Below are positions 48,101 to 58,165 of a DNA stretch of 64,000 nucleotides, piece after piece (position 1 is the stretch's first letter; the number at the start of each line of letters is the position of its first letter). The notes beneath the pieces are model-generated. The model saw nothing but the letters and a program-made list of their open reading frames with translations, ran no database searches and had not been told where the DNA came from. Location: positions 93,083 through 157,082 of the forward strand of contig JANBRJ010000034.1 of assembly GCA_027577595.1 (NCBI GenBank), read 5' to 3'. This DNA comes from Coemansia sp. RSA 487 (Eukaryota > Kickxellomycota > Kickxellomycetes > Kickxellales > Kickxellaceae). Made by a program: the position numbers and the translations under genes.

Positions 48101-50720
48101 CACCGTCGTCCGCACTCGCTGCCGAACACAACAGATTTGATTCGCTGGGCAACAGCGATAGTAGCAGCGACAATGGCAATGACAATGGCAATGACAATGA
48201 CGACGACAGCGCCAGCGCCAGCGATAGTGACAGCGACGAATTGACTATGAATGGCAGCGCCAAACGCATCCGGAAGCTGCGCATGCCACTGCATTTGGAA
48301 ATCCCCAAGGAGCAGTCGTTCGGGCTTACTCTGCCGGTGTTTGCGCGCTTTCTGCGCGAGGTGCAGAAGGAGGACGTTGGTGATGCCGATACCGAGCGCC
48401 GATTCCGGTCGTTCGTGCCGCCTGGCGCTGAAGTGATGGCGGCATATGAACTCGAAGCATACCTCTTGTCTGAATTCAACCTGCTCGACTATTCGTCTCC
48501 AGCCTCTGCAAAGGGTTCGGGAAATGACAAGGGCAGCACCGAAACAGACATGGATCTGCCGCTCAATCAGTACTATGTATCCACATCGCACAACACATAT
48601 CTCACCGGAGATCAGCTAGTTGGAACAGCAACGGTAGAGGGCTATGTACACGCAATGCTTCGCGGATGCAGGTGTCTGGAACGTAAGTACAGCAACCAAT
48701 TCCTGTGTGTTTGTTTATGCATGCGATATGTGGTGGGGAGAGGGGAGCTGAAATGATATGATAGTTTGAAAATTTGGTGCGGCATGCGTTTCCGATTTCC
48801 CTTACAGTTGGCTGTGCATTTGTCTTTTTTTATTATGCGCAGCAAAATGTCGCTAATAATCCTTTTTGCTTGAGTTTTGTTCTGTAGTTGACTGTTGGGA
48901 CGGTCGATGCGGGGAACCAGTCGTTTGTCACGGACATACATTGTAAGTATAAGTATGAGAAGCAGGCTGTCTTTGCGTTTTCTTGTCTTTGATTTTTGCA
49001 TTGACAACTGGAAGCTAGCTGCAACAAATGAGAACAATGTTCCTGAATGCACTTTCCCACGCCTGTTTGTTGCATCGATGACTGCAAAAACAAATGCTGA
49101 TTTCTTTCTAATTACGCTCATGAGCATACATATCGCTGTCTGCTTTGTCTTTTTTATTTTTAATGTTTTAGCACCACACGCATTCTGTTTGAGGATGTGA
49201 TCATTGCCATTTCGCGCTACGCCTTTGCTGCGTCACCATATCCAGTCATACTCTCTTTCGAGACGCACTGTTCGCTGCCGCAGCAAGCACGCATGGCGGA
49301 GATCCTCAAAAAGTACCTCGGTGGCATGATGGTACTGGCGCCGGTTGGCGGAGATCAAGAGACAGAGCTGCCTTCGCCGAACCAGCTCAAATACCGTATA
49401 ATTATCAAAAACAAGGTGCTTGAACCGCCAAAGAGGAGATGGTCTACAGTGACTGGCGGCCATTCGAGGAGCAAGTCTGTGCGGCCAGAAAGCACGCAAC
49501 CGAATCAGCAAGAGCGCTGCGTTTCGCCACGCACCTCCACAGCACAGCTCAAGCGCAAGGTTGCTCCAGAGCTTTCGGAGCTGATTGTGTATTGCAAGGC
49601 TGTTCACTTTGAGGGCTTTGAGAGCGAGAAAGGCCCAGAGCCAGCGTTCGACCAAATTACGTCAGTGTCCGAGTCAGCCTCGAACCAGCTGATGCGCCAG
49701 CATCCGAAGCAGTATGCGAACTACAATGCTATGCAGATGACGCGCGTCTATCCGTCGTTCTCGCGGTTCACATCAACAAACTTTAATCCGATCAACCACT
49801 GGGCTACCGGCTGCCAGCTGGTGGCGCTGAACTTCCAGACCCTCGACCGTAACATGCAGCTGTACGAGTCCATGTTCCACAGCTCGCTTGGAACCGGCTA
49901 TGTGCCAAAACCAAACCACCTGCGCGAGCCCAAGCCCAATCACAGCACGTGTGGCGGAGACAACGATACAGATACGATGCTGTCTCCGCCGCAGTCTCAG
50001 GGTGCAATGAACTCGCCGACGCTGAAGCAAACAATGTCATGGAGTGCGTCGCTTGCGTCGCCGATGGAGACGACCGAACCAACATCGGCGCTGCCGCCAT
50101 CTCTGGCGCCTAGGCGCACCACAGTGCACGTCAGCGTTATTTCTGCGTACAATGTGGCGATGGAGGCTGCCGGATTCGCCAGTGCCGGAGGCAACAGTGG
50201 TAGTGGCAGCGGCAGCTCGCGCAGGGCGTCGAATGTTGGGCTGATGATGGGTGGCAACGGTGCTGGTGCTGGTGCTGCAGCTTGCGGCAGCGGCGGCGGC
50301 AGGCGTGGGTCGTTTTCCGCGGATCCCAGCAGCTTCGTGTCAGGCTCACATTCGCCTCACAGATTGTCCCCGTCGCCGTCAGACGTGGCAATGTTTGCAA
50401 ATGCGGCTCCATCGGCCACGCCGTTTACGGCGGATTACTCGCTGCTTAATGCTGCTGCAGCTGTAGCAGCAGCTGATGCTGTGGCCAATCTGGCAGCACT
50501 GCAGCAGCATCAAAACCAAGGCCATCACCAAAGTCAAAACCAAAATCAAAAACCCCCGTCTGGCGGAAGTAGTAGCGGTAGCCAGAGCACTGCCGCCAGT
50601 CGTATTCGGATTGTGATTGAGTGGATCTGTGAAGGATCGGCAAGCGGACAGCAGAAGACAAGTAATAGACAATCGGTGGAGGATCCAGCAACACTAGCAT
50701 CTGCTCTTGGAGGCAGTTCT

Positions 50721-54538: not shown

Positions 54539-57500
54539 TCATTTTGAGCGGACTTCAAACTGGAAAAGCGCCTGCGCGCCAGGAAGCAGGCTTACGGCGC
54601 GCTCGACTTTGTGCTTGAGACGCTGGTGCTGCCACTCGCCAATCGACCAGTCGCCAGGTTCTGCCGCATAGACGTCCACACGCTGCTGCGGCCCAACAGC
54701 GAGAAGGCCCGGAACGTTGATAACGCCCGCTCCGTGCTCATCCAGGCAGCGCGCATCGCCTGCCAGCAACTGCACGCGTGCATAAATGTCCAAACCATCC
54801 GAAGCACGCCGGCGCCCACGCTGGATACCAACAAAACGCACGCATCCATTATGCACGGTGCTGCTCGCCTTGTCGTCTCCAGCCGCTCCAAGACCCGAAT
54901 GTGCTGCCAGTGAGACGTTGCTGTCGGGCATCGCCATCAGAAACGCCAGCGCTGGTGCATTGAGGGCTGCGTTTGCTAGCAGACCCGAGCGCGCAGGCGC
55001 GCGATCCATGCCAGTGTCGACAAAGTGCGTTATGCTGGCCATACTGTCGTCGATGACCGGCTCGTCAAGTCCGCGGAAGTCGTTGCCCGACATGCTGCGA
55101 TGCATACCGACCTCCAGCGTATTTGCAGCAATACACGTTGCGCCTGTCGCCTGCCGCGAATGCAGCGTCAGATCGCCCGACGCCAACGCAACATGCGACA
55201 CCGCGGGATAGTAGTTTCCAGGCACTGGCGTCCACCGACTGTACTTGCGGCGCGTAACACCAACACCGTCAAACACATCAAATGCACACTGCTTCGCCAT
55301 GCTGCGCATGGCACCGCCGCTGGCCAGCTCAAAGTGTGCAACCACATCGCGATCCACCTCTGGCCGCACGCGTGCAGTCACCTCGACCATGTGCGACCGA
55401 CCTGTGCACAGCCGGTACGTAACGCTGGCGCTGTCTGTGACGTCCACCGTCGCTGTGTCGCAGACCGGTCCGCCGGCTTCGATGCGGAACCCAGACATCC
55501 GGTGCCCGCCTTCGAGCGCCAGCGGCCGTGACTGCCATGCTGGCACTCCGAACAGAACGGCAATAATTGCTGCTGCCACGCCATACACGAAAAGGATACA
55601 TAGGCGTGTGCGTGCCCCAAGCGCTACAGACACAGCATACCCGATCGCAAACGCAGCAACGGCTAGTCCAGCGGACGACACTACGTCGCCCCCAGCCCAT
55701 CGGTTCAGTGTTGCAACGCTGGCAACCTGCTCGACAAAGTAAGCAAGTGCAAAGCCTACAGCCGCACCCAGAGCAATCGCTAGCATTGGCGAAAAGCGGG
55801 TTGCGGGAATCGACTTTGCTTGTTGCATTCGGGCGGCTGCTACAACAACAGAAGCGGCCAAACCAGCGCACAGCGCACCACCAAACACATAAAAGACAAC
55901 TGCGTACATGAGCATGAACGAGTGCATGACGTAAGCGCCGGATGGCTGAATACGCGGATTGATGGAGTATTGCCGCAGCTGGTGCACAACCTCGCTCCTG
56001 CCTGAACCACGCTCCATCGACATCCGGACCCCAGAACCACGGCGGTCTATTGCCAGGCGCACGCGTGTGCCGTCCTTTTCTAAAACAGCCTCAGTGGCAA
56101 GTGGTCCAGCAGAAGACGTCTGTGTGTGGAACGCATCGCGAAGCATCGCCATCCGAGCATAGTCACGCTCCGCTACGGTTTCGTTGACCAGAACATAGTT
56201 GCGCCATCCGAGCGGAGGCACATCGCGTGCAACAAAGTCAACCTCAAATCCAGTGTCGTGTGTGGCGGGACGCACCGCAACTGCATCGACTGCACGACGA
56301 GTCGTCGGGTCGATCAATGCGACGTCCAGCGACGGGACATGCAGCCGCACCGCCTGGTCCTGCGCACTCAAGCGGTTTGCATTGGTAACAGTGACAACCA
56401 TAGGCTGCACAGTGTCTGACACAACCAGACGTGCTTCGGCATCATCAGCTGTGTTGTAGCCACGCGGTGCTGCATCCGTGCTGGCTTTAGCGTCTTTGAT
56501 CTCGCGTTCCATCCGATCGGGATCCAGATCCAGATCCAGATCCAGATCCATTGTACCTGACTGTGCCAGCTGCAGTGCATATCGACCGATGTGCATCGCT
56601 ACACGCTGTGCTGAGCGCAGACGCAGCTCGTAGTCTTCGGTCGCCCTGCGCGAGCACGTACCTGTGACTGCGTCATGGTGGTACCCGATGGCCACCTGCT
56701 TGCGGCAGTACTCGAGCGAATGCTCCAGAACGTCCCACGCTGCCTCAATATCCTTGCCCGTGCCCGAGCAACGCACTCGCGCCACCGCCACCAGGGCCTC
56801 GACATGCTCCACTGCCTGCTCGGTGCTCCTGACTAGTCGCTTGAGTGTTGGCCGTGTCGTATAAAAGCCGCTCCAGTACTGCTCATAGGGCTTGTCCTGG
56901 TACGGGTAAAAGTCGCCGCGATGCAAACGAAGCTGCGTCTTTCCTGTCTCCTTCTTATGTGTACTCGCCACACGATCGTCGATCTGCGCCATATACGGGC
57001 GTATCGCCTCCAGATACTCGGACGGCGTCGAGTAGCGCAGCGTCATGTCGCGCCACGCGTGCGGGCGCTCCCCTGGCGACTGCGCTTTGTCGACTATGTG
57101 ATCCAGGCACGCGAACGCCCACGATGCTTTCATGTACCGAAAATCGTCGCCCATCATCACCAGAACATGTCCATGCCCTGGATACTTGCGCGTCTGAGTG
57201 CGCGCAAACCGCACCAGCTCATCCAGAAGCTCCTCTGCGTTGCATAGCGACGTCCTGTCAAAGTCAAAGTTTGCGCTGGGCGCCGCGTACCCGACCGAGA
57301 GAAAATGTGTCAGTATTGGCGGCGCCTGCGAGTATGGCGCCTGCCAGAGGAACTCGTAGTCCCCGTGTGCAGCAAAGCCAAAGCGCTCGCGGTAGTCCAT
57401 GCGGCCCAGTATCAGACCCGTGTACCCAGTGTTTGCCAGCAAGTGTGGCGTCACTCGTGCATGTCCAAACGGGTCGATCTGCCATCCAACCCGCGTGGTT

Positions 57501-58165
57501 GTGTTGAGCTCGCGCGCCACAAAGCGGCGCCCCACGTCGACTATTGCATTGTGCGCCCACCATGTCGTCAGCCCCTCGTCTGGGCTGACATACGTGCCGC
57601 CGACAATCTCCCACTGGCCGCGGCTGATCAGCTCCCCCAGGGCCATGCGCCACGTCATCTCCCGTGCGCGGCCTGGCAGGACCCTATTGGCCTTGTCGCC
57701 CTCGTCATCCATCCACAGATCAAGGAACGCAACATCGCCCCATGTGAACTTGCGCTCACGGTTCATCCACAGCGTCGCCACCACGTTGCGCAGCACCTGC
57801 CGCACCCACATCTCGTAGTACTCGCCAAAGCTGTAGTTCCATCCGATGTCCGAGTGACTGTGTGCCACGATATGCAGCGTCAGGTTCTGTGGTCTCTCGT
57901 GCTGTGTGGCAAAATCTCTGTCCACTGGTGGCCCGGCTTCGCCGAGCTTTGCGACCCATGAAGGTTTACCCCATGGAACCACTGACCGGTTAGCAAGAAA
58001 TAGCAGCCATACAAACCCTATGGCCAGAAGCGCTCCGCCTCGTCTTATATACCGCCGTGGCACAAGCATTGCACAAGTATGTTTCTTTTGCCCGCTCTTC
58101 CAAGGGGGTATATAATATATGCAAATGCGTAATAAGCGCCTGCTGCTTTTGTCTTCTGTCGTCAA
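54539..58165 (-). CDS. GH38 alpha-mannosidase with an internal four-helix membrane segment
   Basis: A 1208-residue single-exon protein; the ATG at 58069 (residue 33), with a TATA-like TATATTATATAC about 40 bp before it, is an alternative start. A basic N-terminus and hydrophobic segment (about 44-60) form a type II signal anchor. The catalytic domain is a clear GH38: zinc ligands in AHSHSDIGW (His104, Asp106) and nucleophile Asp231 in WQIDPFGHARVTPHLL, then LGRMDYRERF and VMMGDDFRYM. Motifs are nearest the lysosomal/vacuolar class. After QPSGAY (740-745), where lysosomal enzymes continue into their beta-sandwich, about 140 residues of four predicted transmembrane helices intervene, e.g. YAVVFYVFGGALCAGL and ILFVYGVAAAIIAVLF. 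The mannosidase C-terminal region then resumes (YSRWTPVPGNYYPAVSHVAL). An even helix number keeps both halves lumenal. It should trim alpha-mannose in Golgi or vacuole. Confidence 0.9.
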   Translation of the reverse strand: MTTEDKSSRRLLRICIYYIPPWKSGQKKHTCAMLVPRRYIRRGGALLAIGFVWLLFLANRSVVPWGKPSWVAKLGEAGPPVDRDFATQHERPQNLTLHIVAHSHSDIGWNYSFGEYYEMWVRQVLRNVVATLWMNRERKFTWGDVAFLDLWMDDEGDKANRVLPGRAREMTWRMALGELISRGQWEIVGGTYVSPDEGLTTWWAHNAIVDVGRRFVARELNTTTRVGWQIDPFGHARVTPHLLANTGYTGLILGRMDYRERFGFAAHGDYEFLWQAPYSQAPPILTHFLSVGYAAPSANFDFDRTSLCNAEELLDELVRFARTQTRKYPGHGHVLVMMGDDFRYMKASWAFACLDHIVDKAQSPGERPHAWRDMTLRYSTPSEYLEAIRPYMAQIDDRVASTHKKETGKTQLRLHRGDFYPYQDKPYEQYWSGFYTTRPTLKRLVRSTEQAVEHVEALVAVARVRCSGTGKDIEAAWDVLEHSLEYCRKQVAIGYHHDAVTGTCSRRATEDYELRLRSAQRVAMHIGRYALQLAQSGTMDLDLDLDLDPDRMEREIKDAKASTDAAPRGYNTADDAEARLVVSDTVQPMVVTVTNANRLSAQDQAVRLHVPSLDVALIDPTTRRAVDAVAVRPATHDTGFEVDFVARDVPPLGWRNYVLVNETVAERDYARMAMLRDAFHTQTSSAGPLATEAVLEKDGTRVRLAIDRRGSGVRMSMERGSGRSEVVHQLRQYSINPRIQPSGAYVMHSFMLMYAVVFYVFGGALCAGLAASVVVAAARMQQAKSIPATRFSPMLAIALGAAVGFALAYFVEQVASVATLNRWAGGDVVSSAGLAVAAFAIGYAVSVALGARTRLCILFVYGVAAAIIAVLFGVPAWQSRPLALEGGHRMSGFRIEAGGPVCDTATVDVTDSASVTYRLCTGRSHMVEVTARVRPEVDRDVVAHFELASGGAMRSMAKQCAFDVFDGVGVTRRKYSRWTPVPGNYYPAVSHVALASGDLTLHSRQATGATCIAANTLEVGMHRSMSGNDFRGLDEPVIDDSMASITHFVDTGMDRAPARSGLLANAALNAPALAFLMAMPDSNVSLAAHSGLGAAGDDKASSTVHNGCVRFVGIQRGRRRASDGLDIYARVQLLAGDARCLDEHGAGVINVPGLLAVGPQQRVDVYAAEPGDWSIGEWQHQRLKHKVERAVSLLPGAQALFQFEVRSK
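56521..56550 (-). repeat. Hexanucleotide repeat coding for Leu-Asp dipeptides
   Basis: Tandem copies of a six-base unit (GATCCA on the plus strand) encode an alternating Leu-Asp run, DLDLDLDLDPD, within the mannosidase between the catalytic and C-terminal parts. Probably a recently expanded surface loop. Confidence 0.85.

Follow-up and report, generated by a model that had tools for sequence, protein, structure and literature searches.

The known lysosomal and vacuolar class II alpha-mannosidases are soluble, and to our knowledge GH38 enzymes are either soluble or held in the membrane by a single anchor. Among the matches listed in our literature searches (titles and abstract openings, on GH38 or mannosidase with membrane spans and on early-diverging fungi), no polytopic GH38 enzyme was described. 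Here we analyse a gene on the minus strand of a 64,000-nucleotide stretch of Coemansia sp. RSA 487 (contig JANBRJ010000034.1), hereafter the window. The gene lies in an uninterrupted open frame at 54539-58165 (1208 codons from a TTG at 58165), in which translation likely starts at the ATG at 58069; residues are numbered in the 1208-residue frame throughout. By its sequence, the product is a divergent class II-like GH38 alpha-mannosidase. We favour, with a probability of about 0.7, the reading that it is a GH38 variant with five membrane spans, in which a bundle of helices tethers the beta region to the membrane close to the active site.

The relatives with solved structures are the fly Golgi alpha-mannosidase II (PDB 1hty/1qwn), which is the best match to the whole protein (E 9.2e-40), and the lysosomal/vacuolar mannosidases of jack bean (6b9o) and bovine (1o7d). 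The GH38N and middle domains pass their curated Pfam cut-offs (140 bits versus 25 and 53.9 bits versus 31.1, respectively), which bears out the GH38 identity given to this protein in an earlier note on the same DNA. With the lysosomal/vacuolar enzymes it has in common the N and middle domains and the succession of SGAY, NYYP, and RG motifs. With the fly Golgi enzyme it shares the zinc ligands, the nucleophile, and the equivalents of Tyr727 and Arg876, and its predicted N-terminal signal anchor is like that of type II Golgi enzymes. The beta region matches chain D of the bovine lysosomal mannosidase (E 1.9e-5, aligned over residues 974-1041) and the fly enzyme (E 7.4e-4). It differs from the fly enzyme by four extra predicted spans, and from all three relatives by the spacing between SGAY and NYYP, which is 239 residues here versus 100 in the fly Golgi enzyme, 114 in the bovine lysosomal one, and approximately 115 in that of jack bean. 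QPSGAY occupies residues 740-745, NYYP starts at residue 984, and NDFRGL at 1028. The excess in spacing (125-139 residues relative to bovine and fly) brackets an insert of 133 residues.

This insert carries four hydrophobic segments, which we defined as non-overlapping 19-residue stretches with a Kyte-Doolittle mean of at least 1.6. The rest of the protein has just one such segment, at residues 45-63. Hydropathy predicts five spans in total, not a single N-terminal anchor, and agrees with the earlier note, which had described about 140 residues with four strongly hydrophobic segments after QPSGAY. None of 280 stretches of 133 residues, taken from 65 long open frames elsewhere in the genome, has four or more segments, and only 4 of the 65 frames have as many when taken whole. 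Dinucleotide shuffling of the insert (4000 shuffles) gave an open sequence 95 times, four segments 4 times, and the two together in no case. Forward frame +2 of the insert is likewise free of stops. Hence, openness alone proves little, and the frames are separated by codon usage. The insert has no match in Pfam, PDB sequences, or NCBIfam, and a search of its own genome returned only itself. Viral and prokaryotic contig collections hold no relative of the whole protein or of the insert, a result that says nothing on conservation among fungi. The AlphaFold model of the insert with its flanks (155 residues) has four helices at modest confidence (62.6), and a Foldseek search with the insert model gave 28 PDB matches at E <=10 and none at E <=0.001; we count neither as strong evidence.

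Codon usage places the insert clearly on the coding side, yet in the lower quarter of the coding windows. Its codon log-odds are 0.20 in the frame of the gene and negative in the two remaining forward frames (-0.26 and -0.33), while coding windows (n = 280) have a median of 0.32, a 25th percentile of 0.21, and a 5th percentile of 0.06, the last being also the 99th percentile of off-frame windows. When only synonymous choices are scored, the frame of the gene is the highest of the six (0.052) and exceeds 97% of the off-frame windows (n = 560) and 63% of the in-frame ones (n = 280). Divided into thirds, the insert scores 0.167, 0.262, and 0.171, values that all exceed the off-frame 95th percentile at that length (0.07; the 99th percentile is 0.18 and the coding 25th percentile 0.19). 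Its GC content (0.557) is above the maximum of 157 noncoding windows (0.537), which overlap and were defined as being without frames of at least 90 codons, a choice that biases them to low GC. It is also above that of all 11 introns (0.30-0.52) with which we modelled splicing in this genome. These introns (1 from actin and 10 from Ras-family genes, 106-391 nucleotides long) had their borders assigned from reading frames, least surely for the one we label L042. Two of the 12 stretches fetched, L044 and L049, did not enter the model, as neither had been given a donor/acceptor pair; three GTAAGT donors, a second one from actin and two from a gap of the PI-PLC gene, are also outside it. When read in three frames, the 11 introns have a median codon log-odds of 0.00 and a maximum of 0.29; the longest (391 nucleotides) scores at most 0.04, and a stop-free one (L047) scores 0.08 in the frame of its gene. 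The worry that the segment might be an unspliced intron is thereby eased: in codon usage, frame preference, and GC the segment resembles coding DNA, which makes a retained intron unlikely. The sequence points to a probably translated membrane insert in a GH38-type enzyme.

In PMC13204073, from which we took the roles of the active-site residues, fly Tyr727 hydrogen-bonds the substrate. The equivalent tyrosine closes the SGAY motif, so the insert begins directly after an active-site residue. The description of QPSGAY as the entry to the beta-sandwich does not hold, since approximately 200 residues separate the middle domain from SGAY and this tyrosine belongs to the active site in fly. Alignments and motifs show that all nine fly positions compared are kept (Tyr727 by motif identity). 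Given as fly/here, they comprise His90/His104, Asp92/Asp106, Trp95/Trp109, Asp204/Asp231, Arg228/Arg255, His471/His497, Asp472/Asp498, Tyr727/Tyr745, and Arg876/Arg1031. The zinc ligands, the nucleophile, and the substrate-contact residues are among these nine, in a comparison that took in neither Tyr269 nor, by alignment, Asp341. For the latter, the acid, a GDDF motif suggests an equivalent.

The charges around the spans suggest how the protein may sit in the membrane. The counts of basic and acidic residues are 4 and 0 before the N-terminal segment, 3 and 0 in the first loop of the insert, 1 and 2 in the second, and 2 and 0 in the third. Save for the stretch after span 4, they fit an N-terminus and two loops in the cytosol and an enzyme in the lumen. 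Residues 45-63 are predicted to form a signal anchor with a cytosolic N-terminus; a cleaved signal peptide is the alternative. Six N-glycosylation sequons are found in the protein, none of them in the insert and one inside the anchor segment. The N-terminus is hydrophobic, and the four predicted spans that follow speak against solubility. The earlier note had argued that an even number of spans keeps both halves of the enzyme lumenal. The even number stands and the predicted loop charges agree with it, but that account of the topology left unmentioned the N-terminal hydrophobic segment and the adjacency to the active site. The features are listed in Table 1.

Table 1. Features of the GH38 gene, with positions in the window and residue numbers of the 1208-residue frame.
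Feature	Position	Strand	Basis or remark
Likely coding sequence	54539..58069	-	First ATG at 58069; 1176 residues + stop; open frame extends back to TTG 58165
N-terminal hydrophobic segment, residues 45-63, after MLVPRRYIRRG	57977..58033	-	Kyte-Doolittle 1.95; 4 basic, 0 acidic before
GH38 N-terminal catalytic domain, residues 96-390	56996..57880	-	PF01074 E 1.3e-40
Alpha-mannosidase middle domain, residues 429-529, contains YHHDAVTG	56579..56881	-	PF09261 E 2e-14
SGAY motif, residues 742-745	55931..55942	-	Tyr745 = fly Tyr727 by motif identity; SGAY = 724-727 in 1qwn
Insert, 133 residues (746-878), four hydrophobic segments	55532..55930	-	Hydropathy, codon usage; no Pfam/PDB sequence match
Predicted membrane span 1, residues 757-775	55841..55897	-	Hydropathy 2.14
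Predicted membrane span 2, residues 793-811	55733..55789	-	Hydropathy 2.05
Predicted membrane span 3, residues 833-851	55613..55669	-	Hydropathy 1.94
Predicted membrane span 4, residues 856-874	55544..55600	-	Hydropathy 2.69
GH38 beta region resumes, NYYP-NDFRGL, residues 984-1033	55067..55216	-	Bovine lysosomal and fly alignments; Arg1031 aligns with fly Arg876

From the open frame, the domains, the hydrophobic segments, the codon usage, the charges, and the active-site residues, we infer a protein that, if translated and active, would cross the membrane five times, with an N-terminal signal anchor followed, directly after SGAY, by four helices. The lumenal side, in the secretory or vacuolar system, would contain the catalytic barrel, the middle domain, and the beta region in both its parts, and two short positively charged loops would lie on the cytosolic side. 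To form the beta region, two segments that exit and re-enter the membrane would fold together. The bundle would keep the active site near the membrane surface, which may serve the retention of the enzyme or a preference for membrane-borne substrates. A bolder version, which we regard as speculative and rather doubtful, places the four-helix bundle beside the catalytic pocket, with an active site working at the bilayer on mannose of lipids or membrane proteins (e.g., GPI anchors or mannosylated sphingolipids).

Several observations weigh against a five-span enzyme. At the level of the fold, GH38C falls under its curated Pfam cut-off (12.1 versus 25 bits, E 0.23), so we term the protein a class II-like GH38 enzyme and not a full member, and the piece after the insert matches no Pfam family. 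Residues 879-960 were aligned pairwise with three GH38 fragments, and the scores obtained were reached by 1058, 633, and 794 of 2000 shuffles. The exact point at which the fold resumes is uncertain because these residues align no better than shuffled ones. Span 1 starts approximately 11 residues past the active-site tyrosine, a tight geometry. AlphaFold run without an alignment gave no usable model of the whole protein (mean predicted local distance difference test of 36.9). After span 4, basic residues outnumber acidic ones by 3 to 2, which is of no help to the lumenal assignment of this stretch. At the level of the codons, the score of the insert is just under the coding 25th percentile, and it is exceeded by 3 of the 33 intron readings (0.21, 0.23, and 0.29, from introns of 106-131 nucleotides, all with stops). 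For seven amino acids, GC at third codon positions is 44/99 in the insert and 315/505 in the rest of the gene, a drop that begins upstream, near residue 520. Finally, the insert contains the two highest-scoring acceptor-like motifs of the gene (13.28 and 9.57 bits), at 55624 and 55840 (minus strand), at Val-Ala codons.

These motifs bear on the alternative that survives best, even if the sequence makes it unlikely: all or part of the hydrophobic stretch would be a retained stop-free intron, its length a multiple of three, and the mature protein would be an ordinary GH38 enzyme. One of the 11 modelled introns has this character (L047, in a Ras-family gene at G000:C31:102490-102710): it has 174 nucleotides, GTAAGT/TGTAG borders, no stop, and a length divisible by three. 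In this genome, a retained intron can thus pass for an open frame. The borders speak less for such an intron here. All 11 modelled donors begin with GTA, 7 of them with GTAAGT, and 10 of the 11 acceptors end in TGTAG; the insert contains neither GTAAGT nor GTATGT. It does have four donor-like sites of 5.0-5.8 bits and a GTTTGG of 3.17 bits, and 3 of the 11 true donors, when left out of the model in turn, fall below those four sites (1.63, 2.82, and 4.10 bits). An exact cut at 55532-55930 keeps the frame and would give a near-canonical spacing, but its scores (-4.85 for the donor and -5.46 for the acceptor) are below those of every left-out intron (lowest 1.63 and -3.01, respectively). The frame is likewise kept by a cut of 240 nucleotides and by a pair of 68 and 136 nucleotides. 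The former, the best in-frame pair, couples the 13.28-bit acceptor to the GTTTGG donor, the latter requires an intron of 68 nucleotides, shorter than the shortest modelled (106), and both would, by their coordinates, leave span 4 in place. Six of the nine cut sets tested, each with a single intron, truncate the protein, and the better-scoring pairs break the frame. Overall, in the 11-intron model with its self-assigned borders, no frame-keeping pair in the insert combines a genome-like donor with a genome-like acceptor. The branch point CTRAY is absent from residues 700-920, but it is also missing between the borders of several introns that we accepted, and we did not use it as evidence. The coding-like codon usage, frame preference, and GC of the insert likewise argue against an intron, and TGTAG would arise naturally from the Val-Ala codons of a helix. 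The two acceptor-like motifs may reflect chance in such codons or may be a trace of intron ancestry.

A second alternative, which we judge improbable, accepts that the frame is translated and supposes that the insertion abolished catalysis, leaving either a gene in decay or a membrane protein that serves another purpose, e.g., mannose binding. The divergence of the protein, with GH38C under its cut-off, is compatible with such a loss, as are the adjacency of the insert to an active-site residue and the two other GH38 loci of the genome, which score higher. Against it stand the intact frame, the codon bias, and the retention of all nine active-site positions compared. An artefact of assembly or gene fusion, joining a fragment of a membrane protein into a mannosidase gene, is very hard to credit: the insert has no relative in the viral and prokaryotic collections and happens to be flanked by an imperfect direct repeat (14 nucleotides, 86%) and a 13-nucleotide inverted pair, but the frame is continuous and GH38 sequence is present on both sides, the insert matches only itself in the genome, and the repeats are short two-copy pairs, often due to chance, that lie off its edges.

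The genome provides a context for the five-span enzyme. GH38 is represented by three loci in the 17.8 Mb assembly, and GH47 by seven matches, of which three are clustered on contig C85 and two on C11 (both of G000). The two other GH38 loci share the GH38 N and middle domains with the protein of the window, and by their motifs they would be of the Ams1/MAN2C1 type. A protein search of the genome with the window protein found only itself, so these two loci are distant. GnT-I (PF03071) has no match in the assembly, in a search made without a eukaryotic positive control, which renders a role in complex-glycan processing in the Golgi unlikely. Within the gene, a short GATCTG repeat at 56520-56552 (minus strand), between the middle domain and the beta region, reads as LDLDLDLD. 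Eight other frames of the window were scanned; seven match ordinary Pfam families and the eighth matches none. The PI-PLC gene at 48683-49171 (plus strand) has two apparent introns with GTAAGT donors, as judged from motifs and a broken frame only.

If the insert came from a former intron, at which its two acceptor-like motifs could hint, a membrane domain would have been born inside an enzyme. The five-span reading, if true, would show a membrane domain to be compatible with the assembly of a large two-part fold around it, and would suggest that mannose is trimmed at the surface of the membrane.

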